Source: an uncultured Ardenticatenia bacterium (GTDB lineage: Bacteria; Chloroflexota; Anaerolineae; 4572-78; NAK82). From it: a DNA stretch of 33,397 nt. How positions within the stretch are numbered: the stretch's first letter is position 1; each line of letters opens with the position of its first letter. The notes under the pieces were generated by a model. That model had not been told where the DNA came from and did no database searches. It saw only the letters and a program-made list of their open reading frames with translations. Position numbers and translations under genes: made by a program. Of the stretch, positions 115 through 22,926 are shown in pieces. The stretch spans positions 1-33,397 of the forward strand of contig CAKZLO010000042.1 in NCBI GenBank assembly GCA_937127125.1, read 5' to 3'.

Positions 115-1047
115 TTATTCCACAGCATCGAGCGCAGGCGGCAAAGCATACCCATTCGGAAACTCCGGGCTGAGCTGGTAATCCACGATGCGTTCTAGCA
201 ACTTGAGGTACTCAATGCCATCCCGTGCCGCCGTGTCGGCATCCGGCACCATTGGTGAGCTCTCAATGGTGCAATAGCCGCTGTAGTTGACCTTCTTGAT
301 GGCACGAATGACCGTTTTGAAGTCGATCGAGCCATAACCAGGCGTGAGTGAATTTGAGTCGCGGAAGTGCATGTGCCACAGCAATGGATGGGCATCCATG
401 ACCGCTTCGTATGGATCGAGCTCCTCGATATTGACGTGGAACCAGTCAAGCTGAATGCCAATGTTGTCACAACCAGTCAACTCGATCATGCGCTTGTGGT
501 TGAGCACTGTATTGACGAACTTGCCCATCTCCAAATGGTTGGTTGCCTCAAAGACCAAGCGGATGTTCTTCTGCCTAGCGTAGTCGGACATGCGGCGCAG
601 CGCATCCACTGCGATCGCAGTGCACTCGGCGACATTTTGGGCCGTGACCGGGGCGTGGATAGCCACGGCTACGGTGACAAAAGCGGCGCCCAATTCGGCA
701 GCAAAATCGATGGTGCTGCACGTCTCGGAGACGGCCAGATCGGCAGTCTTGGGTTCGGTCAACGTCTTATACGTTGGTGAGTAGGGATCCCATTCCTCGC
801 CCCAACATTCGTTGACCGACGACACTGTCAACTGGTAATCCGCTTTGAGCTGCTGGTGCCTCCGCAGATAAGGTTCCATCTTAACCCCCAAGCCATAGCG
901 CCCTTTGGGGGGACAGACCTCGATAGCATCGTACCCGAAGCGCTTCAGGCGCTGATAGGTTTTTTCCGGATGCAGGTATGCTTCTTCCTGCCCAAAGGTG
1001 AGCTGGAAGTAGCTGAACTTGAGACGGTTCTTTGTCGTATTGTTCAT
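115..1047 (-). CDS. TIM-barrel sugar phosphate isomerase/epimerase (xylose isomerase-like)
   Basis: This is a cytosolic 310-residue protein of the AP endonuclease 2 / xylose-isomerase-like TIM-barrel superfamily, which interconverts ketoses or hydroxy-acid intermediates (D-tagatose 3-epimerase, IolE/IolI, hydroxypyruvate-isomerase types). The usual Glu-Asp-His-Glu metal set can be read in order: Glu in FEATNH, Asp in QLDWFH, His in WHMHF and Glu in TIES near the C-terminus. Length is typical. The start has AAGGA three bases ahead of ATG (AAGGACACG). It is the last gene of the sugar operon, 34 bases after the medium-chain dehydrogenase gene, so it probably acts on a keto-sugar made by the operon's dehydrogenases. 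The substrate cannot be read from sequence. Confidence 0.85.
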   Translation of the reverse strand: MNNTTKNRLKFSYFQLTFGQEEAYLHPEKTYQRLKRFGYDAIEVCPPKGRYGLGVKMEPYLRRHQQLKADYQLTVSSVNECWGEEWDPYSPTYKTLTEPKTADLAVSETCSTIDFAAELGAAFVTVAVAIHAPVTAQNVAECTAIAVDALRRMSDYARQKNIRLVFEATNHLEMGKFVNTVLNHKRMIELTGCDNIGIQLDWFHVNIEELDPYEAVMDAHPLLWHMHFRDSNSLTPGYGSIDFKTVIRAIKKVNYSGYCTIESSPMVPDADTAARDGIEYLKLLERIVDYQLSPEFPNGYALPPALDAVE

Positions 1048-1081: not shown

Positions 1082-2098
1082 CTATGCCCAGTCGCGCCCG
1101 TTGGGGTGAATCAAGGCTTTCACATCCTGCTTGGCGCGCAGGTTGGCAAAGGCAGTTTCCCACTCCTCAAGTGTGTAGTGGCTGGTGATCATGGGATCCA
1201 GATTGAAGATGCCCCGATCGAGCAGGTCGACTGCGTGCTCCCACGTCTCGCGACCGTTCCAGCTCCAGCTGCCGCGGATGTCCAGCTGGCCCAAGCTGAC
1301 CTCATCCAGATTAATGGAGATCTTACGCCCCCACAGACTGATGAAGACGATCACACCCTTGCCGCCGGGTCCCTCGTGTGCCTTGCGTGCGCAGTCTATA
1401 GCGTGCTGAACACCTTCCTGGCTGGCGGAACACTCCAACACAAATTCGGCACCCTTACCGTTGGTGATTTCCATTACCGCCTCTGCTGGCCCGTCCTCAG
1501 AGTATAGGATGACATCGGCACCTACCTGTTTGCCGATCTGCAGACGTTTCTCGTCGCTCTTCAGCCCGATCAGGATGACGCGCCTCGCACCGCACAGCTT
1601 GGCATACTGGACCGCCATGATTCCCATCGGTCCTGGTCCGACGATCACGACATCGTCGCCTACCTTGGCCTGAGCGCGCTCCTGCATCAGATGATGCGTG
1701 GCAACAATTGGTTCACACAGGCAGGCGTGATCCAGCGACACGTGATCAGCCACACGATAAGCCACATGTTGCGGGATGCGCATGTAAGGTGCGAAGGCGC
1801 CATCCACCGTGACTCCCAGCCACTGGCCCTTGCCGCATTCGATATCGGCAACCAACTTATCCCCTTCCTTGATGTGTCTCACGTTGTTGCCCACCCGATA
1901 GGCAATCCCAGAGAACTCGTGGCCCAGTGTAACTGGCGCATGGTAGAAGTGGCGATCCTCTTGGATCAAGAGGTCGCTGCCACATACGCCGGCGGCGTAC
2001 ACTTTCATCAAGATATCATCCGGCCCGATCTCGGGTTCTGGAATTTCACACAGTTCCACGTGCCCCACACCGGGCGCTGTCTTGCGCAGAGCTTTCAT
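1082..2098 (-). CDS. medium-chain zinc-type alcohol/polyol dehydrogenase lacking the structural zinc lobe
   Basis: This is a 338-residue NAD(P)-dependent dehydrogenase of the medium-chain (sorbitol/threonine dehydrogenase) family. The catalytic-domain motifs GVCGSD (first zinc Cys) and GHEFSG (zinc His-Glu) are near the N-terminus, and the Rossmann motif GPGPMG is at mid-length. The usual four-Cys structural zinc loop is absent: that place reads ECGKGQWLGVTVDGAF, with one Cys. The ATG at 2098 (MKALRK) is chosen because GGAGAG lies nine bases upstream and family members start this way. A GTG at 2149 would add 17 residues and overlap the preceding stop. It likely oxidises a sugar or polyol hydroxyl for the downstream isomerase. 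Confidence 0.85.
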   Translation of the reverse strand: MKALRKTAPGVGHVELCEIPEPEIGPDDILMKVYAAGVCGSDLLIQEDRHFYHAPVTLGHEFSGIAYRVGNNVRHIKEGDKLVADIECGKGQWLGVTVDGAFAPYMRIPQHVAYRVADHVSLDHACLCEPIVATHHLMQERAQAKVGDDVVIVGPGPMGIMAVQYAKLCGARRVILIGLKSDEKRLQIGKQVGADVILYSEDGPAEAVMEITNGKGAEFVLECSASQEGVQHAIDCARKAHEGPGGKGVIVFISLWGRKISINLDEVSLGQLDIRGSWSWNGRETWEHAVDLLDRGIFNLDPMITSHYTLEEWETAFANLRAKQDVKALIHPNGRDWA

Positions 2099-2145
2099 AA
2101 GCCGTTTCTCTCCAGATTCATTCTGTGTTGCGATCACAACTCCTG

Positions 2146-3285
2146 TCACGATGCACCATAGCTTCGATGCTGGAGCGCGGTCTGGTATACTTTGTGGATG
2201 CGATCCGGGGTAACGTCTGCCTGGATGTTGTGCGAGGGCACGAACACGTAGCCACCGCCTGGCGCCATAATGTCGAGCGTGCGTTTGATCTCATCCTCGA
2301 TCTGCTGCGGCGTGGCGAAGGGAAGGACTTTCTGCACGTCAATGGCACCACCCCAAAAACACAGCTCCTTGCCAAACTCGCGCTTCAGACGCGCGATGTC
2401 CATTTTGCGTGCGCTGCGTTGGATGGGATTAAGGATGTCTACTCCGATCTCAATGAAATCAGGGATGAGGTCGTACACAGAACCACAGGAGTGATAGAAG
2501 ATCTTGGCCTGGGTCTTTGAGTGGATGAAGTCGAAAATGCGACGCTGTCGCGGCTTGATGAACTTGCGGTACATCTCCGGCGAGATATATGGGCCGGTCT
2601 GGATGCCCACATCATCTCCTTGCGCCACGACATGTACGTAATCCCCTACAGCGTTTAGAAAGGCGTCCCACAACGCGATATCAGTTTCGGTGATCTTGTC
2701 TAGGAGCGCTTCGGCAAAGCCTGGATCCCAGTACAAGTCGGTGAGAAATTGTTCGTATCCACGGAGCACGCAGCCGCCCTCGAATGGACCCAGACACATG
2801 ATATCGGCCACAATTGCATAGTTAGTGTTCTCGTAGAGCGCTTTCGCTTCCTCACGCAAGCCGGCCACCCGTCCTGGGTCATATGGGTCTGGCCAAGTGG
2901 CTGTCGCCAGGTCATGCACGGTTGCATCGGCAAGCGGCCGCTCCACTACATCATAGTAATAGCAGGCCTTCTTCCAGCGAATGTTGAACTCGTCGTAGAA
3001 GCTGTCATCGGGCATCTCGCGCGGCTCGAAGCACCATGGCCCCTTCATCGCCACGGTGCGAAAGTCCACCTCATAACGCTGCAGAAGGTCCTCGCCTGGA
3101 TAGACAGTGTCCATCTGACGATGCGAGATGACTGGCTCGGCATCCGCTGGCATGCCTAGGTACTCGCGCAGATTTTGATAGGCAATGCGGGTCAGCGTGG
3201 TCACGATAGTGCCACCAAGGTCAATGGGCACCTTGTCCGGCTCCCCATGATTCAACGCAGCCAGCACACGCTCACGTGAGTTCAT
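2146..3285 (-). CDS. uroporphyrinogen decarboxylase-family protein (MtaA/CmuA-like) in a sugar operon
   Basis: This 379-residue protein belongs to the UroD superfamily, which includes haem-pathway decarboxylases and corrinoid-linked methyltransferases such as MtaA and CmuA. Family signs are RERVLAALNHGEPDKVP at residues 4-20, YHSCGSVYDLI at 264-274 (His265 and Cys267, the zinc-ligand HxC pair of the methyltransferases), and GGGYVFVPSHNIQ at 343-355. It is unlikely to be true HemE, because it has the HxC pair and lies in a sugar operon. The ATG at 3285 is preceded by AAGGAG and overlaps the previous stop as ATGA, so translation is coupled. No corrinoid protein gene is in this operon; the nearest is at 22927-23568. 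Demethylation of a methylated sugar or glycoside is a possible role, by inference only. Confidence 0.8.
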   Translation of the reverse strand: MNSRERVLAALNHGEPDKVPIDLGGTIVTTLTRIAYQNLREYLGMPADAEPVISHRQMDTVYPGEDLLQRYEVDFRTVAMKGPWCFEPREMPDDSFYDEFNIRWKKACYYYDVVERPLADATVHDLATATWPDPYDPGRVAGLREEAKALYENTNYAIVADIMCLGPFEGGCVLRGYEQFLTDLYWDPGFAEALLDKITETDIALWDAFLNAVGDYVHVVAQGDDVGIQTGPYISPEMYRKFIKPRQRRIFDFIHSKTQAKIFYHSCGSVYDLIPDFIEIGVDILNPIQRSARKMDIARLKREFGKELCFWGGAIDVQKVLPFATPQQIEDEIKRTLDIMAPGGGYVFVPSHNIQADVTPDRIHKVYQTALQHRSYGAS

Positions 3286-4284: not shown

Positions 4285-5982
4285 TCATAGTTTCTTGGGG
4301 GGACTCAAGTCGGGCAGAGGGGCCTGTTCCGGCTGAGCATGATGTACCATCACGTCGATGGTCAACGCCTGTGCCGCACTCGTGACAGCCGCATAGGCTA
4401 CTGATTTGGTAACAATTGCTGGGTCAAAAATCCCTGCTTCCGTCATGTTCACCACGCGCTCACGCACGACGTCGAATCCATAACCCGGACCGTGTTGCTT
4501 GACTGCGGCCAGAGTCTCAGAGGCGTCGAACCCGGCATTGGCAATGATAGCGCGGATCGGTGCGGCCACCGCGTCGGCCAGAATGTGATAAGCAGCACGT
4601 TCATCAGGGTCAACAGCCGCGCGCGCCATCGCTTCGAGGGTCGGACGACAGCTCCATAAGGCAACCCCACCGCCCGGCAAGACCCCTTCGCGCAGTGCAC
4701 CACGCAGGGCCGCCGCCGCGCGCTTTGCGCGTTCAACCCGTTCGTTGATTTCACGCCGGGTCATTCCACCTACCCAGAGGGTGGCTGAGCCGCCCAGCAG
4801 CTTGCCGATACGCTCTCGCAACAAGTTGCGCGTATTGGGATTATCGGTGCGCTCAAACGCGGTGCGTATGATGGCAATGTGCTGGCGCAGCTGGCGGGCG
4901 TTTCCCTTGCCGCCGATAATGCCGAAATTGTAGCGGTCGGCCCAGGCGCGGCGTGCAAAACCGAGGTCCTCGCGTCGGATGCGTTCGAACGAGTCACCAG
5001 CCGCCTGAACAAATGGACGTCCGCCGGTCAGTACGGCAAGGTCTTCCAGTGCCCATGCTTTTTGCTCCTTGTCCCACCCTGGTGTCTTGACGGCCACTAC
5101 TCGCAGCTTCTCCGGGTGCTTGTTAGACAGCAGAAAGCCGATAGCACTGTCCGAGATATCGCCAATTACCATGAGCAAGGAGCGAATGTTATGCCGGATG
5201 ACCAATGCCAGGGGTGGATAGAGTTGCTGCGGGTGCTTGATCTCGAGATCGCTGATCAGGATGGCGCTTTCTTCCAGATCGATGCGCAGTTGGTCGTCGC
5301 CGTCCAACATGCCGCGTGAGACGACCCCGCGTTCCCAGTACATGCCCTCGACATACTCGCGCTCCAGCTCACGGCTACGGCCGGGGCGAATCTCCACGCG
5401 GCCGAACTCGCCCACGATGTCGAAGATCTCCCCAAGCATATCAGCAAGAGGCGGGTCGTAGCAGACGGTTTCGGCAATGTGCGCCAGCTCTGACCTGCCT
5501 GAAAGGTGGATGGTCATCTTGTTGAGCTGTTCCAGGATCGTTTGCAACCCCTTTTCGAGGAAGACCTGCAATCGGCGTGCGTTGCCGCCTGCGCTGATAT
5601 AGTGCACCCCGCGCTGGAACACAGCCTGAAACAACACAGCAGCGGTGGCTGTGCCATCTCCCACTTGCTGTTGCAGTCGCCACAACACATCGCGCAGAAA
5701 CATTGCTCCCACGTCGGCGTCACGGTCGGGAAGCTCGATAATCAAACGGGCAATTGTTCCGCCGTCATCAAGGAGCTGTGGCGTCTTGTCATGGTAATCG
5801 ACGTGATCGATGGCGACTACGCGTGGTCGCGGGCCCAGCGTAGGACGGATGGCGTTTACCAGCTGATTGATACCACGCTGCATGCCGCGGTAGGTGGCCG
5901 GCTGGAACACCACCCGTTCCATATTGGTGTAAATGGTGGGCTGCATAACCCGAACGCGAGGTTTCCGGAATGGAGGGATCAT
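4285..5982 (-). CDS. divergent GroEL-like (Cpn60) protein with Arg at the catalytic Asp398 position
   Basis: This 565-residue protein is recognisably group I chaperonin along its whole length. It has GINQLVNAIRPTLGP (37-51), LDDGGTIA (71-78, matching TKDGVTVA with Asp52), VGDGTATA (107-114, matching AGDGTTTA with Asp87), VEGMYWERG (211-219), VAVKTPGWDKEQKAWALED (296-314), LPGGGVAL (435-442) and GIFDP (517-521, matching Asp495). A gapless comparison of residues 404-439 with GroEL places Arg421 where GroEL has Asp398, the residue needed for ATP hydrolysis. Tyr203 and Phe204 of the apical substrate site correspond to Gly and Met, and there is no GGM tail. The ATG at 5982 follows AAGGGG and lies three bases after the permease stop. 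No groES is present. It is probably a specialised, slow or non-hydrolysing chaperonin paralogue, not the housekeeping GroEL. Confidence 0.88.
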   Translation of the reverse strand: MIPPFRKPRVRVMQPTIYTNMERVVFQPATYRGMQRGINQLVNAIRPTLGPRPRVVAIDHVDYHDKTPQLLDDGGTIARLIIELPDRDADVGAMFLRDVLWRLQQQVGDGTATAAVLFQAVFQRGVHYISAGGNARRLQVFLEKGLQTILEQLNKMTIHLSGRSELAHIAETVCYDPPLADMLGEIFDIVGEFGRVEIRPGRSRELEREYVEGMYWERGVVSRGMLDGDDQLRIDLEESAILISDLEIKHPQQLYPPLALVIRHNIRSLLMVIGDISDSAIGFLLSNKHPEKLRVVAVKTPGWDKEQKAWALEDLAVLTGGRPFVQAAGDSFERIRREDLGFARRAWADRYNFGIIGGKGNARQLRQHIAIIRTAFERTDNPNTRNLLRERIGKLLGGSATLWVGGMTRREINERVERAKRAAAALRGALREGVLPGGGVALWSCRPTLEAMARAAVDPDERAAYHILADAVAAPIRAIIANAGFDASETLAAVKQHGPGYGFDVVRERVVNMTEAGIFDPAIVTKSVAYAAVTSAAQALTIDVMVHHAQPEQAPLPDLSPPKKL

Positions 5983-5985
5983 ACA

Positions 5986-7110
5986 TCACCCCTTAATGGC
6001 GCCCGCCATCACACCCTCGACAAAGAAACGTCGGAAGATGAGATAGACCACCAGCAGCGGTAAGATGGAGGCGAACACACCGGAGTAGATTACCTGAAAG
6101 TTGGTGGAGAACTGGCCGGCCGTGTTCGCGATGAAGGGCAACAGGGTGGTATTGGCCGGATCGAGATAGACATACGGCTCCAGGAACTGATTGTAGAAGA
6201 GTGGCAGCTGGATAACTGTCAGGCTGACGATGGGCACCTTGAGTAGCGGAAAGAGGATGTGCCGGATATATTGCCATCGGCCAGCTCCATCCAGCATGGC
6301 CGACTCCTCCAGGTCGCGCGGGATACCGCTGATGGCACTCACGAAGATCATAGTGGAAAGCGCAGTGCCCTTGATGTTGATCAGGATAACGGCAAGGAGC
6401 TGCAGGGCGTGGCGCATGAAGCTGTTCTGCACGTCATAGCCCGGGAAGAGCTTGAAGAACCACTGGAACATCTGATACTGCGGCAGGATGATCAACATAG
6501 CCGGGATGACCATCTGCAGGAGATACAGGTTATAGACATACATCTGGTCACGCCGACGCAATCCAGCCAGACCATAGCCAGTAAGGATGGAAAGTACAAT
6601 CAGGATGCCCAGACTGACAAACGCTATCAGAATGGTTCTTATAAGCGCTGCCCAGAAATTGCTACCACCTGCCTGGCCAAAGAGCAGCGTTTGCCAGCCG
6701 TTGAACAGATAGAACCCCTCGAAATAACTCTTGATTCGTTCTTCGGGGATATTGTATTTCTTAGCTATCTCTGCCAAGGTCTCCCGGGCGCCCAAGAATT
6801 TGCCTTTCGGGATACCCAACGCTTGCTTCATTTCTTTGAGGTCGAGATTGTAGAAGACGGACAGGTTGCCCACCTCAGTGTTCATATCTACCGGTCTTGC
6901 CTTGGGCAACCATAAGTGGAGTTCACCAGCATCCGCAGTAGCGACAAACGTGCGCACGAATAGTATGTAGAATGGGAAGATGGTGAACGCACTGTAGATC
7001 AACATCACAGCGATCCCAAATATTCTAAGCGCCAATCTCCTCTTGGAAAGGGTCCAGATGGAAGTGCGCTGCGCTTGCAAGGCTTCAAGAGTCTGCACTT
7101 GACTTGTCAT
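5986..7110 (-). CDS. ABC sugar transporter permease, MalG/UgpE-like, with enlarged first periplasmic loop
   Basis: This 374-residue inner-membrane permease belongs to the carbohydrate uptake (CUT1) family. Six membrane helices can be placed near residues 30-52, 152-180, 188-210, 237-259, 292-312 and 340-360. The cytoplasmic EAA loop that contacts the ATPase is at 268-293 (EESAMLDGAGRW and so on). The family is usually about 280 residues; the excess is a loop of roughly 95 residues between helices 1 and 2. That loop contains TLAEIAKKYNIPEERI at 111-126, which looks like a helix-turn-helix or LysM-like element. The ATG has GGAGG ten bases upstream. It pairs with the upstream permease; no ATPase gene is in the window, so a shared MsmX-type ATPase is likely. 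Confidence 0.92.
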   Translation of the reverse strand: MTSQVQTLEALQAQRTSIWTLSKRRLALRIFGIAVMLIYSAFTIFPFYILFVRTFVATADAGELHLWLPKARPVDMNTEVGNLSVFYNLDLKEMKQALGIPKGKFLGARETLAEIAKKYNIPEERIKSYFEGFYLFNGWQTLLFGQAGGSNFWAALIRTILIAFVSLGILIVLSILTGYGLAGLRRRDQMYVYNLYLLQMVIPAMLIILPQYQMFQWFFKLFPGYDVQNSFMRHALQLLAVILINIKGTALSTMIFVSAISGIPRDLEESAMLDGAGRWQYIRHILFPLLKVPIVSLTVIQLPLFYNQFLEPYVYLDPANTTLLPFIANTAGQFSTNFQVIYSGVFASILPLLVVYLIFRRFFVEGVMAGAIKG

Positions 7111-7148: not shown

Positions 7149-8102
7149 CTAGTATTGCAGTCTGCGCTGCAGACGTTGCAACGCGATACCCACCAGCATC
7201 AGTGGCAAGAAGGTCTCAAGTGCCAGGGTCATTCCCATCGAAAGACGTTCGACTTGGAAGCCGTAAATGAAGAAGAGCACACTAAGGAACCTGGCGTTAG
7301 GATTGACATACAAAGCTCCCAGCGCTACCAGCTCGTCGAACACAGCCCATGATCCGATCAAACACATAGTCGTGGCCAGGATGAACGAGGGCCACATCTG
7401 CGGGAAATAGATGCGCGTGAGACGCTGCCAGTAGGAGGCACCATCGACGACGGCTGATTCAATCGTTTCCTTGGGGATTGAGAGCAGGCCGGAGAGAAAG
7501 ATCGCCATGTTATAGCCTGCGTAGCGCCAACCTACCATCAGTGGCAACAGGAGTGCTGTACCGGTGGCAGTATAGATATTGATCGGTTCTTTCAGAAGTC
7601 CCAGTCTCATCAGCAGCAAGTTGGCAGAACCCGTCTCTTTGGCAAACAGCATCGAGGCCATGTATCCGACAGCTAGTCCTGACACCATCAGTGGCAAGTA
7701 GATAACAGTGAAGAAGCCACCGCGAAAGCCTATTTCGTACATCAGCAGTGCCAGGGTCAAGCCGAAGATGTACACAGTCGTGTAATTCAGAGCGACGAAG
7801 ATAATGGTGCGTTGAAACGCTGGCAAGTAATCTTCCTGCACAGCGCGATCGGTGAACAGGGCGACGAAGTTACGGAGCCCAACGTAGTTCACCAGGGGAT
7901 CGTTGAACTGCGACATATCCGTCAACAGGATCGGGATGGCTACAAAAAGTGGTACGATGTTCAGTATGACAAAGAAGAACAGCTGAGGCAGGATAAACTT
8001 CCAGTCCTCGAGGATGCGGCGCCTGCCAAGCGCAGTCGTTTTCGGGACAGTTGGTCCCTGAAATGTTACACCACTTGGAGGCTTTGTAGCAGCTACTTGC
8101 AT
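7149..8102 (-). CDS. ABC sugar transporter permease, MalF/UgpA-like
   Basis: This 317-residue integral membrane protein of the CUT1 binding-protein-dependent transporters has six predicted helices, beginning with PQLFFFVILNIVPLFVAIPI. The EAA-type loop reads ETIESAVVDGASYWQR followed by ITRIYFP-like spacing in the C-terminal third. The ATG at 8102 is chosen because AAGGAG lies six bases upstream; a longer frame starting at 8168 would run back through an intergenic hairpin. With the second permease and the solute-binding protein it forms an importer for a sugar, oligosaccharide or polyol. Expression relative to the binding protein is probably lowered by the hairpin just upstream. Confidence 0.92.
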   Translation of the reverse strand: MQVAATKPPSGVTFQGPTVPKTTALGRRRILEDWKFILPQLFFFVILNIVPLFVAIPILLTDMSQFNDPLVNYVGLRNFVALFTDRAVQEDYLPAFQRTIIFVALNYTTVYIFGLTLALLMYEIGFRGGFFTVIYLPLMVSGLAVGYMASMLFAKETGSANLLLMRLGLLKEPINIYTATGTALLLPLMVGWRYAGYNMAIFLSGLLSIPKETIESAVVDGASYWQRLTRIYFPQMWPSFILATTMCLIGSWAVFDELVALGALYVNPNARFLSVLFFIYGFQVERLSMGMTLALETFLPLMLVGIALQRLQRRLQY

Positions 8103-8127
8103 CGCAATCTCCTTCTGTGAAGGATGA

Positions 8128-8158
8128 GAGGCGGCCTGCCAGGCCGACAGGCCGCCTC
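8128..8158 (-). terminator. intercistronic hairpin between solute-binding protein and permease genes
   Basis: A perfect 11-bp inverted repeat, GAGGCGGCCTG and CAGGCCGCCTC, is separated by a nine-base loop. It lies in the 75-base gap after the binding-protein stop codon and ends about 15 bases before the permease ribosome-binding site. No T-run follows on the transcribed strand, so a partial terminator or mRNA-stabilising stem, as between malE and malF, fits better than a full stop. Confidence 0.7.
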
Positions 8159-8177
8159 GTATCCACACTTATTCAAA

Positions 8178-9668
8178 TCATCCAGGCACTTCGGGCAGGG
8201 TGGGCAGGTTGGGATCGGGCAGACCCTCGAAGCTCTCCTCCCAGTTCTTCTGCAAGATGTCCAGGCAGTCTTGCACTGTGATCTTGCCGGCGAACAGGTC
8301 GGTGAAGTAAATGTTGTTGCCGTTGGACTCCCAGTCGAAGACACCCTTGGAGCCCTTCTTGCGGTAGGGGCTGGAGAGCACCACACCGGTCCAACCCTGT
8401 TCGAACTTGGTGTTGGGCCACGGACCCTCCTTGTCGCCGATCCACTTCAGAACCTTGACGTATTGCCACCCCTTGAGTTCGAATGGCTCATCGAGCTTGT
8501 AGAGCGGCACGCGACCTTCCACCTGCGCCTTCATCGGCACGGCCTCAGGGCTCCAGAACCAGTTCCACGCCTGCACGATCTGTGGCCAGATGGGCAGCTT
8601 CTGCACGCCTTCGCGCATGAACCACTGATTGTCGATGTTGGGTGGCAGCGCGGCCTGTAGCCAGACCTCCTGACCATCGGCAGGCGGGGTGGCGGGCAGA
8701 CCCTCCTGGTGCCCGGCGGTGGCGAACGGCGAGCCGGCGGCCATGGCCTTGTCCCACACCCACGGGCCGTGGAGCATCATGACCGACTTGCCGGCGATGT
8801 AGCTGGCCTCCATGTCGCCCTCCCACAGCCGGCTGGGCATGTTGTCGGGGATCCAACCCTTGTCCTTCGCCTTGAGCCAGAACTCGAAGAAGTAGCGATA
8901 GGGCGAGTCGGGATCGTTGAACTTGCGCTTGCCCAGCCAGCAGTCAGCCAGATCTTGCCGCGTGGCGTCCTTGTATGCCAGGGTCATGTGGTCGGGATAG
9001 GGGATGCCGAACACCCAGTTGTGCCAGGACTGGTTCCAGAACCACTCGACGCCTTCGGTGGCCTTGGCCCAGGCGGTGCCTTCGTCGAGCCACTTCTCCA
9101 GGTCGGCCCAGGTCTTCACGTCGCGATGCGGGTCGAGACCAGCCTTCTCCATCAGCTCGGCGTTGTACTGCCAAGTGATGACATAGCCTTGGAAGACATC
9201 CAGCGAGCGCGGACCGGGCAGGCCAAAGAGCTTGGGCCAGGCGTTCTTGACATCATAGGTCCAGCGGTCCCACCACTGGAAGTCCACCGTGCTCAGGTCG
9301 ACCGCCATCAGATAGTTGTCTTTCTTGAAGAAGATCTGCATTTCCTGGGTGAGCTCGATGGCAGCCAGGTAACCGCCAGCAACTTTGGCCTCGTAGGCAG
9401 CGGCCGTGTCCTCGTTGATGGAGAAGACGTTAACCTTGATGCCAGGATTCTCCTCCTCGAAGACAGACCACACTTCCTGGTATGCCTTCTCATACTCGGC
9501 CAGGGACATCACGTCCAGCACGACTTCCTCCGCCTTGGGGGCGAACTTGGCCGGAGCGGCCTGTGCCGGTGCCGGAGAACCCATCACATAGGGCGCCACT
9601 GCCAGACCGGCGGCTGTCATCGCCGAGATGCGCAAGAAATCTCGCCTGCTCAGATTCTTGTTTTCCAT
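8178..9668 (-). CDS. Tat-exported extracellular solute-binding protein, family 1
   Basis: This 496-residue substrate receptor belongs to the ABC sugar importer encoded directly downstream. The N-terminus carries a twin-arginine signal, SRRDFLRISAMTAAGLAVAP, ending near an AQA-AP cleavage site, and has no lipobox Cys, so export is probably through Tat without lipidation. The mature part follows family 1 (MalE/UgpB-like) architecture: VWSVFEEENPGIKVNVFSI near the start, then a Trp- and Tyr-rich second half typical of sugar binders. The ATG is preceded by AAAGGAGGG at ten bases, the strongest ribosome-binding site in the operon, which fits the need for excess receptor. The ligand cannot be assigned from sequence. 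Confidence 0.92.
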   Translation of the reverse strand: MENKNLSRRDFLRISAMTAAGLAVAPYVMGSPAPAQAAPAKFAPKAEEVVLDVMSLAEYEKAYQEVWSVFEEENPGIKVNVFSINEDTAAAYEAKVAGGYLAAIELTQEMQIFFKKDNYLMAVDLSTVDFQWWDRWTYDVKNAWPKLFGLPGPRSLDVFQGYVITWQYNAELMEKAGLDPHRDVKTWADLEKWLDEGTAWAKATEGVEWFWNQSWHNWVFGIPYPDHMTLAYKDATRQDLADCWLGKRKFNDPDSPYRYFFEFWLKAKDKGWIPDNMPSRLWEGDMEASYIAGKSVMMLHGPWVWDKAMAAGSPFATAGHQEGLPATPPADGQEVWLQAALPPNIDNQWFMREGVQKLPIWPQIVQAWNWFWSPEAVPMKAQVEGRVPLYKLDEPFELKGWQYVKVLKWIGDKEGPWPNTKFEQGWTGVVLSSPYRKKGSKGVFDWESNGNNIYFTDLFAGKITVQDCLDILQKNWEESFEGLPDPNLPTLPEVPG

Positions 9669-9850: not shown

Positions 9851-11266
9851 TTAACCCAGATGGTGATACACATCCCAGCCTAGATAGGTGTCAAAGGCCT
9901 CGGCCAGGATGTCACCTACGTGAGAACCGTTGATAGCGCAGTGGTGTGCGTGGCCATTAAGGCACAAATAGCGCATCAAACCATCTAGATCTGGCACCTT
10001 GACCACAGCGCGCATGCCCGACATTTCCGAGAGAGGATCGTCAGTGAACTCGCCCTCTGCCACCACAGCGCGAATCAGGCCCAACCGATCGTCGGTGTCG
10101 AGACGGGCGAAGGTGACCGGTCCGGGTGCCGGGCGACCGTCCAACGCTCCCCATGTATTCTCTGGCCCTAACGTAGTGCCCAAGATTTCTGCTGAGATCA
10201 TCTTGATGTCTTGGACCAGGCTGCGTGGCCAATTACCACAGTGAAACAGGAGCAACTTGTCCGGTTCATCGTTGTAGTTATTGTTCCAGTCCACCAAGGC
10301 GCTGGGTGTGCCGGAAGCCAGCTGCAGGGCCACCATGCCAGCGACGCCGCAGATGTCGACCTCGCATGCACTGGGCATCAGTTGATCGCTCATCATGCTC
10401 ATCAGCGTGCAGGCGTTGATCCCATAATTCTGCTGAATGGAGGTCCAACACTGGAAGGCGGTAGCGTCAATCGAATTCGCCTTCATCCAGTCAGAGATGA
10501 CGACACCCAGCTTTGCCATTTTGACCAACGCAGCCTCAGGTGCCCCGCCCGTGTTGGTGTATGCCTTGATCTCGTCCAGTTTGGCGCGTACCCGTGCATC
10601 GTTGTCAGCCAGCTTCTGTGCGCCCCCAATGATTTCTGAGAGATCTATCGTGGAAACGTTGATACCAGATGCCTCCAGAATCTTCTCGCTGAAGCGCACT
10701 GTTTTGAAGGCATCGGGGCGTGCACCAATGGCACCTAAGCGCAATGTGCGCATGCCGTTGACAACACGGCAGAGTTTGTAGAAGCGGGTCACCTCAGCCT
10801 TAAACTCGTCCGAGCGCGGATCGAGGGTATGGCGGCGTGTGACACTGAACGCATAGCCATATTGGTACAGATTGTTGCAAACCGAGAGCTTACCACAATA
10901 GGCGTCACGCCGATCAGCCGCTGTCAGCGCTGTGGTCTTATCCGGAAACGCATGCACCAGAATTGGGATATCCAGACCTGCAAGGCGGATCGCGTCGGCA
11001 ATGCCTTTTTCATCGCCAAAATTGGGCAGAGTCACCAAGATGCCCCCGATGCGGTCGCGGTGGGCCTTGAACAGCTCGGCACACTTCTGAGCATCTTCCC
11101 AAGTCTCGACGGCGCCCAGCTTGGTGGTCTTCTCGTCTGGGGTGACCACTTCAATGCCCAATTCGCCGAGAACAGCCAGGATTTCCTTCCGCCCTTGTTC
11201 CACCAAGCTGTCGGCGAAGAAGTTTCGGTTGCCTACAATTACTCCCAATGCATTCTTTAGCTGCAT
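9851..11266 (-). CDS. L-fucose/L-arabinose isomerase-family protein
   Basis: This is a 471-residue cytosolic protein of the FucI/AraA-like aldose-ketose isomerase superfamily. The C-terminal half has the family pattern: [12 protein letters not shown] at 271-282, SACEVDICG at 299-307 (Glu302 or Asp304 as candidate metal ligands), [10 protein letters not shown] at 338-347 (His342), and a His-rich end ([17 protein letters not shown]) like the C-terminal His of FucI. It would convert an aldose to a ketose using a divalent metal. The ATG at 11266 follows AAGGAG at six bases; a longer frame to 11350 lacks such a site. The length is below FucI (about 590), so it belongs to the shorter uncharacterised branch. 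The sugar is unknown. Confidence 0.82.
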
Positions 11267-11335
11267 AAAGATCTCCTTTCTTCGACTGTACAGGCGATGT
11301 TGTGCTATGCCGTCATACCATCCAACAATCTCAAG

Positions 11336-11345
11336 TGAACAAATG
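11336..11345 (-). promoter_or_regulatory. possible internal SorC-type operator half-site
   Basis: TGAACAAATG matches ten consecutive positions of the 14-bp dyad found at the operon promoter (TGAACAAATGTTCA on that strand). It lies in the 99-base gap between the VOC gene and the isomerase-like gene. The second half of the dyad is not conserved, so this may be chance. Confidence 0.25.
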
Positions 11346-11365
11346 GCCAACTTCGCGCCATTTCT

Positions 11366-11899
11366 CTAGACTTCCTCTTCGGGTGGATAAATTTTCTCGG
11401 GTTGGGCGCGACGCTTAGGCCGTGAGATGAGCTCCAGGGTTGTGCCGATCAGTTCTTCGGTGTCCAGATATGCATAGTGACCGTCACCGTCCAGCCCGAA
11501 GCCACTGCCGTCCATTGTCATTTGCAGTCCAGCGGCTTCAGCGCACTTGAGTGCCTCTTTCATATCGTCTACGAGCACACCGAAATGATGCACACCGTAG
11601 CCGTGGGCTTTCACGAATTCGTCATAGACGGTATCACCTTCGAGGATCTCGATCAGCTCGATGCGCAGCGGCCCAAGCCAGCTGAGCGCAACGCGCATCT
11701 TGTGTTCAGCGGGGCGACCACGATAGGACATCCGTTTCACCAGTGGCTTACCATACGTGTAGAAGTGCCACGGACCGATGCCAAAGAGCTTCCAATAGGC
11801 TTCGACGGCTTTCTCCAGGTCCTTAACCACAATGCCGACCTGAGCAATGCCGTTCTTCAAGAATGGAAGCGGATGATTCACTGGCAAATTATCGGACAT
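11366..11899 (-). CDS. VOC-superfamily (glyoxalase/methylmalonyl-CoA epimerase-like) protein
   Basis: This 177-residue protein has two paired beta-alpha-beta modules of the vicinal oxygen chelate fold. The first module starts AQVGIVVKDLEKAVEAYW at residue 19 and the second VHHFGVLVDDMKEALK. Of the four usual metal ligands, the first is Gln20 in place of His; Glu in LRIELIEI, His in GVHHFGV and Glu in GTTLELI remain. The family includes epimerases, lyases and dioxygenases acting at carbons next to a carbonyl. Placed between a polyol dehydrogenase and an isomerase, it may epimerise or dehydrate a keto-sugar. The ribosome-binding site is weak (GAGAGAGA). Confidence 0.85.
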   Translation of the reverse strand: MSDNLPVNHPLPFLKNGIAQVGIVVKDLEKAVEAYWKLFGIGPWHFYTYGKPLVKRMSYRGRPAEHKMRVALSWLGPLRIELIEILEGDTVYDEFVKAHGYGVHHFGVLVDDMKEALKCAEAAGLQMTMDGSGFGLDGDGHYAYLDTEELIGTTLELISRPKRRAQPEKIYPPEEEV

Positions 11900-11977: not shown

Positions 11978-13063
11978 CTACTGATTCGCTCTGGCATCTT
12001 CTGGGTTTGGGAAGAAGACCGCCTTGAGCACTTTGCCTTCCAGGGCGAGTGTGGCCCCCTCTTTGAACTGGTCAAGCGGGAAGCGGTGCGTGATCAGCTT
12101 CTCAAACGGATACTTGCCCGAGGCAAGCAATCTGAGTGCCTGATACTGATGGCGGGGGCCAAGTGTGGTTGTGCCAATGAGATAGAGCCCGTTGTAATGC
12201 ACAAGGTTCATATCAATGGGGGGTTTGCTGTCATTTTTGGGCAGACCACCGAAGAGCAGAATACGCCCCCCTTTGCGGGCCATCTCCACAGCTTGCACCT
12301 GGGTTGTTGGCACAGAGTTGGCTGTTATGACGACGTCTGCCCCTCTGCCTCCGGTAAGGCGTCGCACTTCTGCGACCACATCGGACTGAGCAGCGTTGAT
12401 GGTGGCATCCGGTCCGAACGCCTCGGCCATCTTGAGACGGTCTTCTGATACGTCGGCGATGAACACCTTGTCAGCGCCCCGGGCGCGCGCCAACATTGCA
12501 TGGGTACAGCCCACCGGGCCGGCCCCAATGATGGCCACGGTATCGCCCAGCCCAACCCAACCTTTCTCCTGTGCGTGAACGCAAGAGGAGATCGGCTCGG
12601 ATATGGCAGCTAATGCTGGGTCCAAGCCTGGCGGCACCGGTTGCATAATGCCATTGCGCGCTGCTTCCGGCGGTATGGCCATATATTCGGCAAATCCACC
12701 CGGCCAAGCTTGGGCAATTTCACGATAGTTATCGCACAGCTCGTATTTGCCAGTCATGCAGAAATCGCATTTGCCACAATAGACAAACGGCGCAATAGCT
12801 AACAGATCACCTTTGCGCCACGGTCCCGCATAGTTTTCGCCGACTTCTTCTACCCAGCCGGACACTTCGTGACCAATGATCCATGGCAGCGTGACTCGGA
12901 TGTGTCCGCTGCGCAACGTTCGAAGATCCGAACCGCACAGACCGCAAGCATACACCTTGAGCAGGAAGCCTTCTCGTGGTACCTCCGGCACAGGCACTTC
13001 TTCCACGCCGAAGTCCATCGGCGCGCGCACCACAACCGCTTTCATCGTATCAGCCATATGCAC
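11978..13063 (-). CDS. zinc-dependent polyol/sorbitol dehydrogenase-like medium-chain dehydrogenase
   Basis: This roughly 360-residue NAD(P)-dependent dehydrogenase is close to L-threonine 3-/sorbitol dehydrogenases. It carries the catalytic zinc motifs CGLCGSD and GHEVSG, a complete structural zinc loop ([15 protein letters not shown]) and the nucleotide motif GAGPVG. It would oxidise a secondary hydroxyl of a polyol or sugar. The start is ambiguous: GTG at 13063 has AAGGA seven bases upstream, ATG at 13057 is six bases further in, and ATG at 13045 begins the family-typical MKAVVV. It follows the SAF-domain gene by 20 bases. It differs from the dehydrogenase at 1082-2098, which has lost the structural zinc loop, so the operon carries two distinct dehydrogenases. 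Confidence 0.88.
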
Positions 13064-13083: not shown

Positions 13084-14394
13084 CTATTGCCTTTCCAACG
13101 ACTGTTCTGTAGCCAGCATCGTGTCTTGCAGCTGGCGCAGCTGGTACACGAGCTTCGTCGTGTCGGGGGTGACGTTTTCTTCGGTCAACATTTCGCCTTT
13201 GGCGATATCTTTGATCACCTTGCCCCCCACAGCCAGACCCATTGGCATCGCCTTGAGCGCGCGTGCTTCGGCGTAGGGATAGACCAGATTATAGATGTCT
13301 GGACTTCCCAGATCGCCTACTGTCTCGCCTGCCTTCAGCGGTCGTTTGGCGATCGGCACTACTTCCGCTACCAAGCGGTCGGAGAACAGGGTCGCTTCGC
13401 CATAAATCACAGCCTCGGCGACAGACAGGGGGGTCTCAATGGCGCACAGGTGGTACGGTCGGTAAAGCGTGTAGTAGGGACCGTCGCCCATAGCATAGAA
13501 GCGCATATCGGCACGGATGCGCGGATCATCACTGGTTACAACGGCAAAGACACCGGGAGATACCTTGCCGATTGAGTACTCGACACATCCACGATGATGA
13601 AGGATGCCGCCATCTTCCTTAGGGATGAGCACTTTGTTGAGGTCAGGCACATCCACTCTGGCACCGTGGCAACCGGGCACATCGATTGCCAGCCCGGTGG
13701 CATTTGCCATAGCAGCCAACTCCACCATCGTTTTGGTACCGTCCTGGAATGCGGCCAGCATTTTGGGGTTCATGTTTTTGCGCTGTGCTTCCTCGCGACA
13801 GCTCTCTGGGGTGGCCTCGTAATTGATCGGGTTATTCTTCCCTTTGCCAAGACATACTACATCAAAGCCCAGCGAGGTGGCAAAATCGTATAAGGTTTTG
13901 CACACTCCCGGCTCATCACCCATAGCGGCAGTGTAGACGCATCCTATCTTCTCGGCCATGCGGTGAAGGATAACCCCCACCGTGACGTCGGTTTCGACGT
14001 TTAGCATAATCACATGCTTGCGGTTGAGAATGCTATTCCACGCTACCTGAGTACCTACTTCAACGAGGCCTGTCGCTTCGACCAGAGCATCCAGGCTCTC
14101 CAGCTGGGTCAACACCATGGCGTCCTCAGTAACCACACGCTTGCCGTTGCGCAAAGCGTCCTCCGCCTCACTCGGCCGGTTGGTGATGCATATGTCTGAA
14201 TCAGGCACACCAATCTCTTTGAACGTCGCCACAGGACGGCTGGTATCTACATCGGCAATAGCCATAATGTCCATACCAGCCATTTTGTGCACCACGTGGA
14301 CCATCCCGGAACCCATCTGGCCGCACCCGACCAATCCCACCTGAATGGGGTTCCCTTCTGCCTCGAGTCTTCGTAAATGTCCAAGTAGTTCCAT
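13084..14394 (-). CDS. SAF-domain NAD(P)-dependent oxidoreductase (homoserine dehydrogenase-like)
   Basis: This 436-residue protein has an N-terminal Rossmann domain with GLVGCGQMG at residues 20-28, followed by a homoserine-dehydrogenase-like region. A C-terminal SAF domain (around 345-410) contains [21 protein letters not shown], the pattern shared with antifreeze-like and FlgA-type domains. Proteins of this architecture occur in sugar and sugar-acid operons and are often misnamed as flagellar proteins. The reaction is not established here; oxidation or reduction of a branched or acidic sugar intermediate is plausible. It is the first structural gene after the regulator (19-base gap). The ATG at 14394 has no clear ribosome-binding site, so it may be translated by coupling. 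Confidence 0.8.
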
Positions 14395-14413: not shown

Positions 14414-15379
14414 TCACTTGTGAGAGTTTGACTCGCTTAACAGCCGGGTGGCCGTGCGATCATCGGTCACCAGCACATTGATCAGTGATCCGCGCAGAGC
14501 TGCCCGAATGCTCTCATACTTGCCGGCGCCTCCCGCTACACCGATGACTCTTGGGATGCACTTGATCTGTTCCAGTTCGAGGGCAATGATCCGTTCGTTA
14601 ACCTCGTGTCTAATAGGGCGGCCATTGGCGTCGTAACAACGTAGGGCAATGTCGCCCACCATGCCCAGCGCTTTTAATTCATTGATTTGTTCCTCTGTTA
14701 GCAGAGAGCTCACCTGAAGCACCACCGAATCCGGCGTGAGAGCTCCCAGGCCAACCAAAGCCACATCCGCGCGTGCCGCCATGTCCAGCGTTTCAGCGAT
14801 GTGCGTGTCGGCCAACAAAGCATCGCGGGCTAGCTTACTGGCCACGATCCCAGGTGCCGGGATCATACGGGAACGCGCTCCCAATGCCTGAGCTGCCCGT
14901 CGAGTAAGGTCGCCGCCATATACCTCTGCTTCGGGACGTCCCAATCCGCCGGCCATCTGGACAACTGTCATATAGGGCCAGTTACGCGACGGGAGAGCAT
15001 CAACAGTGGCGCGGAGGGTAGTTCCCCAAGACATTGTGAGGATCTCACGGCCTTTGAGACAACGTATCAGGCAATCGGCTGCTGCCTGTCCCAGCTCTCG
15101 CACAACGTTGGACCTGTCGTAACGGGCTGGGGAGACCACTACTGCTTCTAACAGGTTAAAACGAGCCTCCAATTGACGTTCGAGATCTGCGAAGGTGCCC
15201 GGTGGAGGCACCACTGTAATCTTAACCACCCCCTCTTGTCGTGCTTGCTCCAGCAATCGCGACACCTTGACACGTGACAGACCAAAGCGACGCGCAATGT
15301 CATGCTGCGTCAACTCGTCTTGATAATAAGCCTTGGCGATTTTATAGAGGAGATTCTTATCGCTGGCGTGCGTGCTCAT
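14414..15379 (-). CDS. SorC/DeoR-family sugar-binding transcriptional regulator
   Basis: This 321-residue repressor has an N-terminal helix-turn-helix ([24 protein letters not shown] at about 24-47) and a C-terminal SorC sugar-phosphate-binding domain with [17 protein letters not shown] and a late [13 protein letters not shown] motif. SorC regulators bind TGnnCA dyads and release DNA when a phosphorylated sugar binds. Matching dyads flank the promoter of this gene, so it most likely represses itself and the eleven or so genes downstream. The ATG at 15379 is chosen because the frame's longer form would extend through the promoter. The leader is about 100 bases. No strong ribosome-binding site is visible. 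Confidence 0.92.
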
Positions 15380-15452
15380 GCCGCCACAATACCACAATCT
15401 CTCGCTGCCGAGCCACACACTTCGCCAGCGTAAGTCCCCGCAGCGAGCAATA

Positions 15453-15466
15453 TGTGCATTTGTGCA
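15453..15466. promoter_or_regulatory. SorC-type operator candidate O3
   Basis: TGTGCATTTGTGCA fits the TGnnCAnnTGnnCA pattern of the other two sites at this promoter. It lies about 15-28 bases downstream of the predicted transcription start, where a bound repressor would block elongation or clearance. Confidence 0.5.
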
Positions 15467-15469
15467 TGC

Positions 15470-15485
15470 TCGTGCAAATGCACGA
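15470..15485. promoter_or_regulatory. SorC-type operator O2 over the transcription start
   Basis: TCGTGCAAATGCACGA is a perfect dyad with 7-bp arms. It covers the predicted start site just downstream of the -10 element. Larger arms, GTGCATTTG and CAAATGCAC, also pair from 15454 to 15483, linking this site to the neighbouring one. Confidence 0.7.
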
Positions 15486-15487
15486 TT

Positions 15488-15516
15488 ATTATAGCACATC
15501 CAGTTGTATTTGTCAA
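15488..15516 (-). promoter_or_regulatory. consensus sigma-70 promoter of the sugar operon
   Basis: On the minus strand TTGACA (15511-15516) is followed after exactly 17 bases by TATAAT (15488-15493), a perfect match to the housekeeping consensus. Transcription would begin near 15481 and read into the SorC-type regulator and the catabolic and transport genes. A promoter this strong implies tight repression when the sugar is absent. Confidence 0.9.
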
Positions 15517-19632: not shown

Positions 19633-21504
19633 TCAGTGTGGGGATAGTCGACAATTGCGCGCGAATATCTTTCCAAATCCGGGGTATGGAGCCAGCTCAA
19701 TGAAATGTACTCGTGACCGCAGCGCCTGCGCCGTTTTGCGCAAGGGCTCTGATAGCAACAGCTGGCGCGCACCGACACCAGCAGCATTCCCGATCTGGGA
19801 GAAACGTTCTAGAGGGAGTGCTGGTAACATCCCTATAGCCACCGCGTTTCCTATGTCAATATAGCTGCCGAAGGCACCAGCAAGCAACACTTTGGCTATC
19901 TGGTCTGCGGAGACCCTGTTTTCTCGGAGCAACACCTCGATGCCAGTCTGAATTGCCGCCTTAGCCAGCTGAATTTCACGGACATCCTGCTGGGTCACTG
20001 TGATGACATATTCGTTCCGCTCCGCCAAGATGAATTCCCACTGGTTATCTACACGATGCAAATGTGGATGAGAGTCCCTCTGGAAGGTCCCATTTTCCCC
20101 CAGAACTCCAGCCAGGCGCAGCTGCGCCACTGCATCCAAGATCCCTGATCCGCAAATGCCCACCGGAGTGGCATCGTCTATGGTCTTGTAAAATACCCGG
20201 TCAGGGGTGATTTGTACGCGCTCTATCGCACCCGTTGTAGCGCGTACGCCATACTTGATGTGGTAACCTTCAAAGGCTGGGCCAGATGCGCAGGACAAAC
20301 TGGTGATGGCGCCCTCGGGCGTAATAAGCGAGATCTCGGTATTAGTACCAATGTCAATCACCAAAGTAGTGCTTTCCGACCACGCTTGAGCAGTGGCGAT
20401 CAGCACAGCAACATGATCGGCGCCGACATAGCCAGCAATATTGGGTGGTATATACAGATGAGCGCCCGGAGCCACCGCGAGGCCGATGTCGCGTGCTCTT
20501 ATGTCTAAGTCGCTGACCACAGCCGGGATAAAGGGTGAACGTGCCAGCTGGTGCGTAGGCAGGCGTAACAGCAGGTGATGCATGGCTGTGTTACCCACGA
20601 TGACCACTTCTAGGATATGCTGACGATCTGTGCCAGCTTTCGCGCACAGCTCGCCGATCAGCTGATTGATCCCCTCGACCACCACTTGCTGCAGCCTGTG
20701 GGCGCCTCCTGAGTTGCGTTCGGCATATGTGATGCGACTGACGATATCCTCACCATAACTGGTCTGTGGGTTTGTTATCCCTTGAGCCGCAAGCATGTGG
20801 CCGCTATAGAGATCGACCAGGTAACCTGCGATTTTGGTCGAGCCAAGGTCAACGGCAAGGCCCAAAGGAGGAGCACCTACCGGGGTTACTGCCACGATCT
20901 CGTTCCCGCGTATGTGAGCCTGACAGCGCCAATCCCACGCGCGCAGCTGATGTGGAAGTTCCTGCAATACACCCAGGTCAATCGAATCGGCTGGTGTATC
21001 ACAAGAGCGGTTGACCACCTGGAGCAGGTTTTCGGCGTCGGCCAGCGGTCGGTCAAGCGAAGGGGGATCCAATGCGACAGCCAGAGTGCGCACTGGAGGA
21101 GCTATGGCGGTTTCCGCTTCTTCCATTCCTTCCACCTGGGTGCGCATCGGTGTGCTCAGTGACTCAGAAGGTACACTTATCTGACAGTTGCTGAGTGGGT
21201 ATGCCATACAGGCCAGTCGGAAGTTCTGCTCCAATTCCTGCTGAGATAGGGCTTCTCGCTCAGGAACGGTCAGCTCAGAAACTTGGCCTGAGACTACACG
21301 AACCTTGCAACGTCCACAGATACCCACGCCGCCGCAGATGCTGGTCAGCTCCACGCCCAAACGGCGCGCCGCTTCTAGCAAGGACACGCTGGCGGGCACC
21401 TCGCCGCGCCGGCCTACAGGCTCAAATACAATGTGGACAGTGGTTTCGGAGGGAGTATTGTCATCCATGGCTTGATTCTGCTTGATCTGATCCTGATTTG
21501 TCAT
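19633..21504 (-). CDS. corrinoid reductive activator (ASKHA ATPase with N-terminal [2Fe-2S], DUF4445)
   Basis: This 623-residue protein is of the RACE/RamA-like type, which uses ATP and low-potential electrons to return inactive Co(II) corrinoid proteins to Co(I). A plant-type ferredoxin domain at about 20-115 has cluster ligands Cys57, Cys63, Cys66 and Cys99 (SICGGVGICGRC and RLAC). The actin-like part has LGLAVDLGSTKIAGYLVDL, VIVGNTAMHHLLL, VIDIGTNTEISL and LAGAFGSYID, the nucleotide-binding loops. It closes the operon with the methyltransferase and corrinoid protein, its expected client. The ATG at 21504 lacks a good ribosome-binding site; ATG at 21468 is an alternative. The gap before it contains two stems. 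Confidence 0.9.
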   Translation of the reverse strand: MTNQDQIKQNQAMDDNTPSETTVHIVFEPVGRRGEVPASVSLLEAARRLGVELTSICGGVGICGRCKVRVVSGQVSELTVPEREALSQQELEQNFRLACMAYPLSNCQISVPSESLSTPMRTQVEGMEEAETAIAPPVRTLAVALDPPSLDRPLADAENLLQVVNRSCDTPADSIDLGVLQELPHQLRAWDWRCQAHIRGNEIVAVTPVGAPPLGLAVDLGSTKIAGYLVDLYSGHMLAAQGITNPQTSYGEDIVSRITYAERNSGGAHRLQQVVVEGINQLIGELCAKAGTDRQHILEVVIVGNTAMHHLLLRLPTHQLARSPFIPAVVSDLDIRARDIGLAVAPGAHLYIPPNIAGYVGADHVAVLIATAQAWSESTTLVIDIGTNTEISLITPEGAITSLSCASGPAFEGYHIKYGVRATTGAIERVQITPDRVFYKTIDDATPVGICGSGILDAVAQLRLAGVLGENGTFQRDSHPHLHRVDNQWEFILAERNEYVITVTQQDVREIQLAKAAIQTGIEVLLRENRVSADQIAKVLLAGAFGSYIDIGNAVAIGMLPALPLERFSQIGNAAGVGARQLLLSEPLRKTAQALRSRVHFIELAPYPGFGKIFARNCRLSPH

Positions 21505-21559
21505 CTGTCGCTTTATTGAATCGAATGGTTAGGAGAGGACGAGACAATGCTCAGCTCAC

Positions 21560-21582
21560 AGTTGGTTCGGCGGTTCCCAACT
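21560..21582 (-). other. stem-loop in the methyltransferase-activator gap
   Basis: AGTTGG and CCAACT pair across an 11-base loop, about 55 bases ahead of the activator start on the transcript. Together with the neighbouring G/C stem it may lower activator expression relative to the two upstream genes. Confidence 0.35.
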
Positions 21583-21594
21583 CATGACAATGAA

Positions 21595-21616
21595 GGGGGG
21601 GTTAAGGCTACCCCCC
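21595..21616 (-). terminator. GGGGGG/CCCCCC stem after the methyltransferase gene
   Basis: Six G and six C pair across a ten-base loop (GTTAAGGCTA) in the 178-base gap between the methyltransferase and activator genes. There is no T-run after it on the minus strand, so partial termination or mRNA end protection is more likely than a full terminator. Confidence 0.5.
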
Positions 21617-21682
21617 TCCCACACTACGATGTCTGCTTCCAGGCTGGAGCGCAAAGCCAGGGTGAGAACCCACTCAAGTTGT

Positions 21683-22924: not shown

Positions 22925-22926
22925 TG

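Follow-up and report, generated by a model that had tools for sequence, protein, structure and literature searches.

The window, by which we mean the whole stretch of 33,397 nucleotides that was analysed, carries a sugar operon on its minus strand (Table 1). The operon runs from a SorC-type regulator through a DRL oxidoreductase, a dehydrogenase, a VOC protein, an isomerase, a sugar-binding protein and two permeases to a GroEL-like protein, here called GEL, and continues with a beta-propeller protein, here called PROP, a URO-D protein, a second dehydrogenase and a TIM-barrel protein. The GEL start follows the stop codon of permease 2 by 3 nt and the PROP ATG follows the end of GEL by 13 nt, and because these gaps are so short GEL is very likely co-transcribed with the permease and PROP genes. 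An earlier, sequence-only reading of this DNA had already proposed co-transcription with the transport genes; it did not mention PROP, which turns out to be more constant at GEL loci than any other feature. The PROP stop overlaps the start of the URO-D gene by 4 nt. In the region of GEL, the same frame of the plus strand is interrupted by several stops. The real start of permease 1 probably lies inside the ORF listed, and the binding domain of the sugar-binding protein gave no family match. Elsewhere in the window (19633-23568), genes for a corrinoid protein, a URO-D-type methyltransferase and a ferredoxin-ASKHA-type activator are clustered, and from their sequences they apparently form a corrinoid methyltransferase set.

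Table 1. Features of the sugar operon in the window, listed from the head of the operon.
Feature	Position	Strand	Remarks
SorC-type sugar-responsive regulator, operon head	14414..15499	-	PF04198 Sugar-bind
DRL oxidoreductase + SAF domain	13084..14394	-	PF21135, PF08666
Zinc alcohol dehydrogenase, threonine dehydrogenase-like	11978..13063	-	NCBIfam
Glyoxalase/VOC protein	11366..11899	-	PF13669
L-fucose isomerase-type sugar isomerase	9851..11350	-	PF02952, E 2.2e-28
Tat-exported sugar-binding protein of ABC transporter	8178..9668	-	TAT signal; precedes permeases
Sugar ABC permease 1, MalF/UgpA type	7149..8168	-	NCBIfam GlcT/UgpA
Sugar ABC permease 2, MalG type	5986..7110	-	PF00528, NCBIfam MalG/UgpE
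GEL, GroEL-like putative pseudo-chaperonin, 565 aa	4285..5982	-	ATG 5982, stop 4285-4287
Arg421 codon, site of GroEL catalytic Asp398	4720..4722	-	alignment to E. coli GroEL
PROP, predicted seven-bladed beta-propeller, 329 aa	3282..4271	-	ATG 4271; alternative start TTG 4280
URO-D/methyltransferase-like protein	2146..3285	-	PF01208; AAGGAG ahead of ATG 3285
Second zinc alcohol dehydrogenase	1082..2149	-	NCBIfam
Xylose isomerase-like TIM-barrel protein	115..1047	-	PF01261

PF00118 (Cpn60_TCP1) matches GEL over the whole model (positions 2-487, E 2.6e-41, 142 bits against a cut-off of 34.3). GEL shares about 30% identity with both E. coli GroEL and the ordinary GroEL of its host; between those two proteins the identity is 58%. 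It misses the cut-off of the GroEL equivalog TIGR02348 (347 against 582 bits), and the sole GroEL-level model that it passes is the looser PRK12849 subfamily (369.6 against 352). Alignment to E. coli GroEL pairs Asp73 of GEL with Asp52, Asp109 with Asp87, Arg421 with Asp398, Asp520 with Asp495, Gly224/Met225 with Tyr203/Phe204 and residues 437-439 with the GGG of positions 414-416. The nucleotide-contact residues Asp87, Gly414-416 and Asp495 (GroEL numbering, as in what follows) are thus present, while the catalytic Asp398 is absent, as is the GGM tail. The alignment confirms what the sequence-only reading had said of this protein, namely an arginine at the Asp398 site and no GGM tail, and every residue number that it gave is correct, including the counterparts of Asp52, Asp87 and Asp495, the Gly/Met apical pair and the GGG turn. 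The equatorial strands that join subunits and the inter-ring Arg452 are retained; GEL would be a group I chaperonin paralogue that assembles into a GroEL-type ring. The bridges Arg197-Glu386 and Asp155-Arg395, which belong to the allosteric, ATP-driven cycle of GroEL, have lost their Arg sides. The predicted structure (pLDDT 88) has the GroEL subunit fold, with TM 0.82-0.84 to GroES-bound GroEL; that it comes closest to this open form carries little weight without a control prediction of an ordinary GroEL.

In a search of 61 genomes the family stood clearly apart from ordinary GroEL: full-length members scored at least 433 bits and ordinary GroELs at most 318. Scanning 84,980 species genomes yielded 80 GEL loci; nearly all are from Chloroflexota, and one clade comes from drafts of Acidimicrobiia/Actinomycetota. 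A more distant tier was added by surveying 199 genomes of the same class. Among 117 distinct relatives, position 398 is Arg in 72, Ala in 12, Glu in 8, Lys in 6, Gln in 5, Asp in 4 and another residue in 10. Since 113 of the 117 thus have a residue other than Asp, against Asp398 in 18/18 ordinary GroELs of the same class (which also all keep Asp52), the replacement is not a matter of chance. The four Asp-keeping relatives make up one sister group, and no Asp was found at the hydrolysis site in the GEL family proper. A maximum-likelihood tree that omits the position-398 column places a single loss of Asp398 at the base of 78 representatives (SH-aLRT 90); the site has since changed repeatedly among other residues and never reverted to Asp, so that the loss has been irreversible. 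Three of the four members of the sister group (L126, L128-L130) carry Ala at Thr90 and none has a propeller neighbour; the group possibly pictures the ancestral state. The Acidimicrobiia/Actinomycetota loci (L064, L080, L086, L110) carry operons in the order binding protein, permease, permease, GEL, propeller; as they form one clade nested among Chloroflexota, horizontal transfer of the whole module into that lineage is suggested.

The rest of the pocket has fared unevenly. Asp87 and Asp495 are invariant wherever readable in the 117 relatives and the GGG is nearly so; Thr90 is Ala in 105, and only 56 keep Asp at position 52, which is often Asn or Ser. In the apical domain, 90-100% of GELs have hydrophobic residues at positions 199, 200, 204, 233, 234, 237, 259 and 261, and the groove is retained together with the pocket; within the GroES/substrate site, Tyr203 is lost and position 264 is altered. 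Between members of the window's genus, dN/dS is 0.048 for GEL, 0.103 for PROP and 0.03 for the permease. A pseudogene was considered for GEL and rejected, the frames being intact and dN/dS between congeners 0.03-0.05. The family is apparently large and undescribed: literature searches for a link between GroEL, propellers and Chloroflexi, with subscription papers mostly outside their scope, found no prior description. GEL genes pass the general "chaperonin GroEL" model, and so they are probably filed in databases as ordinary GroEL.

The host, a 3.7 Mb draft genome in which the window is one contig, has two ordinary groES-groEL pairs on another contig, C11, and groES occurs only there, beside the two ordinary groEL genes; the sequence-only reading was right that groES is missing from the window. 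These pairs (L001 and L002) are near-identical and lie about 25 kb apart, and only one of the two GroELs has a GGM tail. The host encodes three divergent GroEL-like genes (in the window, on C3 and on C6), each with a PROP-type propeller gene immediately downstream on the same strand; they have Arg, Glu and Tyr at the Asp398 site and Asp, Lys and Asn at the Asp52 site. A search for heat-shock control by CIRCE, allowing up to three mismatches, found no site at GEL and likewise none at an ordinary groEL locus, so it says little about such control. GEL is not the only GroEL of its host, and an ordinary groEL accompanies it in most genomes; none was seen in three drafts (G002, G038, G049). In one of them groES stands at the end of a contig, another has genus-mates with ordinary groESL, and completeness is 83% in the third, so the gap is most likely missing sequence. 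This coexistence and the retained ring-joining strands would suit a GEL that serves as an inactive regulatory subunit in mixed rings with ordinary GroEL. We consider this highly improbable, as GEL is so remote in sequence from the host's own GroEL and as the three host paralogues are each tied to their own propeller, not to groEL.

In GroEL, the D398A mutation leaves about 2% of the ATPase activity and slows the release of substrate (PMC3813556), and a double mutant deficient in ATPase persists as a stable symmetric complex (PMC5941174). From these precedents we infer that GEL would bind nucleotide, would hydrolyse little or none of it, with a rate at most a few percent of normal, and would dwell in a long-lived state as a holdase or assembly scaffold for PROP rather than as a cycling folding machine. 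The earlier description of GEL as ATP-binding and slow or non-cycling is a well-supported inference on this ground, given the loss of Asp398, the frequent Asn or Ser at Asp52, the Ala at Thr90, the invariant Asp87 and Asp495 and the nearly invariant GGG; its further claim, that GEL serves one sugar pathway, is not supported, as set out below. Two points count against a non-hydrolysing GEL: Arg, Ala, Glu and Tyr at site 398 need not all abolish hydrolysis, and an Asp at position 51 might partly compensate for the missing one. Taken further, the second point would make GEL an active, rewired ATPase, slow but cycling, in which another acid, for example Asp51 or residue 397, replaces Asp398, perhaps with a GroES encoded elsewhere. 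Of the close relatives, 97% have Asp at position 51, where GroEL has Lys or His; Asp87, Asp495, the GGG and the groove are intact, and groES was found in 10/12 genomes checked. However, only 58% of the distant relatives, which also do without Asp398, have Asp51, residue 397 is variable, Asp52 and Thr90 are eroded and the two bridges lack their Arg side. We regard a rewired, cycling GEL as unlikely.

PROP is matched by PF14870 (YCF48/BNR; 34.6 bits against a cut-off of 27) and misses the cut-off of the YCF48 equivalog PRK13684 (38.5 against 326 bits). Its predicted model (pLDDT 92), from which the number of blades is derived, has YCF48 (2xbg/5oj5) and GH74 as best structural matches, with seven-bladed designs and RACK1 also found. 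In this model the first strand begins at residue 11, which would leave no room for a signal peptide, so PROP is predicted to be cytosolic; a hydrophobicity test of 82 PROPs found no strong leader, and the same test missed most of the Tat-exported binding proteins. In the majority of the distant relatives (among them L156-L163 and L168-L172), the partner is a tandem double propeller of 630-657 aa with a GH74-like layout, and the genes for these tandem propellers often overlap GEL by 4 nt.

A propeller gene lies directly downstream of GEL in 70/77 close and 18/27 distant relatives, against 0/17 ordinary groEL genes. Conversely, 20 of the 21 strong propeller matches in the 199 genomes adjoin a GEL; the only one without a GEL neighbour is L177 (G113:C11). 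The distance matrices of GEL and PROP are correlated (r 0.76, 53 pairs; maximum of the Mantel null 0.18), and at 22 loci with permeases r is 0.96 between GEL and PROP, against 0.84 and 0.74 for GEL or PROP with the permease. The conserved adjacency of the two genes shows functional coupling; contact does not follow from it.

The predicted seven blades match a sevenfold ring, and PROP could accordingly be pictured as a cap or plug on a seven-subunit GEL ring that replaces GroES and yields a static container or scaffold. The absence of a nearby groES, the changes at Tyr203 and position 264 and the match of the GEL model to the open, GroES-bound state, which comes without a control prediction, would be in keeping with such a cap. 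On the other side, conservation within PROP is uneven, being concentrated in some blades, the distant relatives have double propellers, and the blade number rests on a model. We give a propeller cap a slim chance. A propeller acting as a one-chain lid or core on the ring, the two proteins forming a static machine for organising the uptake or catabolism of sugars, is likewise a long shot; if true, it would be a chaperonin turned structural scaffold.

The sequence-only reading saw in GEL a chaperone of the transporter or enzymes of its sugar pathway, and the propeller would then be merely another protein of that pathway. The order permease, GEL, PROP in the window agrees with this, and sugar ABC permeases lie upstream in 38/70 close relatives (30 within 300 bp), although ordinary groEL loci, being short upstream, are a weak control for this linkage; on the tree it requires at least six changes. 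The propeller linkage, however, is nearly twice as frequent and reaches the distant relatives, of which only 2/25 have permeases. The operons themselves also differ: the transporters are either 60-70% or 25-30% identical to those of the window and belong to very different lineages, the regulators vary (SorC, LacI), as do the enzymes (GH32 in one large subgroup), and elsewhere the GEL-PROP pair, or GEL alone, stands beside SMC, aldehyde ferredoxin oxidoreductase or nothing recognisable. Because the permeases, regulators and enzymes vary and the linkage is partial, sugar import is a frequent setting and not a constant partner; the constant companion of GEL is the downstream beta-propeller. A chaperone for the sugar pathway itself is thus decidedly unlikely. 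At some loci (L042:11183-13435, also L040 and L081), a LacI-family regulator carries a URO-D domain, an unusual fusion of about 751-759 aa, and its gene is divergent from the GEL-propeller operon. GEL was also considered as a substitute for the ABC ATPase missing from the operon, and this found no support. ABC transporters of this sugar-import type often share an ATPase encoded elsewhere, and the host genome has five above-cut-off PF17912 matches (MalK-type ATPase) outside the operon, so GEL need not fill such a gap.

With slightly less than even confidence, we favour the reading that GEL is a pseudo-chaperonin that binds nucleotide, barely hydrolyses it, and folds, holds or assembles the propeller encoded next to it, the pair being an accessory of sugar operons. 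The hydrophobic apical groove would be used on one dedicated client, the cytosolic PROP from the next gene, without a GroES-timed cycle. Operons for sugar import and catabolism would carry the pair as an accessory that can be reused; by analogy with YCF48, PROP presumably does the work and makes contact with the pathway, with GEL as its scaffold. Against a dedicated client stand the 16/104 readable GEL loci that have no adjacent propeller, four of them in the Asp398-keeping sister group. Beta-propellers, moreover, usually fold without a dedicated chaperonin, which counts against PROP as a client.

ATP-driven cycling is the defining trait of chaperonins. In bacteria, a widespread group I lineage has lost Asp398, once, and is under strong purifying selection, which suggests that the ring or fold can be useful without the cycle; the loss, together with the constant propeller neighbour, suggests a dedicated non-cycling chaperonin ring for one partner. 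The genetic link between GEL and PROP would provide a natural one-client system whose client can be read from sequence, and with it a direct test of why chaperonins meet beta-propellers in eukaryotes (CCT with WD40 proteins, and the BBS proteins).

Compared with known systems, GEL shares with GroEL (TIGR02348, PF00118) the whole fold, Asp87, the GGG, Asp495, the ring-joining strands and the apical groove, and differs from it in lacking Asp398 and the GGM tail, in the erosion of Asp52 and Thr90, and in being paired with a propeller rather than an adjacent groES. The phage EL chaperonin is, like GEL, a distant relative of GroEL and works without E. coli GroES, but it keeps the Asp398 equivalent (Asp412) and hydrolyses ATP (PMC7185714). 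Chlamydiae GroEL2 and GroEL3 are likewise extra, fast-evolving paralogues beside an ordinary GroEL, with different ATP-binding and GroES-binding regions, and the part of their description drawn on here reports no propeller partner (PMC1892554), in contrast to GEL; GEL also fails their models (NF038370/NF038369; 81 and 116 bits against 600) and is unrelated to them by model score. YCF48/HCF136 (PF14870) resembles PROP in sequence and fold, but it is a photosystem II factor, whereas PROP is predicted to be cytosolic and has another gene context. CCT/TRiC folds seven-bladed WD40 propellers (PMC8544692) and so resembles GEL as a chaperonin with beta-propeller clients, if PROP is indeed one; it differs as an active group II ATPase with many clients, GEL having seemingly one partner, encoded adjacently. 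The parallels with CCT and with the BBS chaperonins are ones of analogy and not of membership. By that analogy, the closest functional parallel to GEL is BBS6/BBS10/BBS12, which have a degenerate ATP hydrolysis motif and assemble a complex with beta-propeller subunits (PMC5534436); these are eukaryotic group II proteins for which rings are not reported and which act via CCT, whereas GEL is bacterial and of group I.
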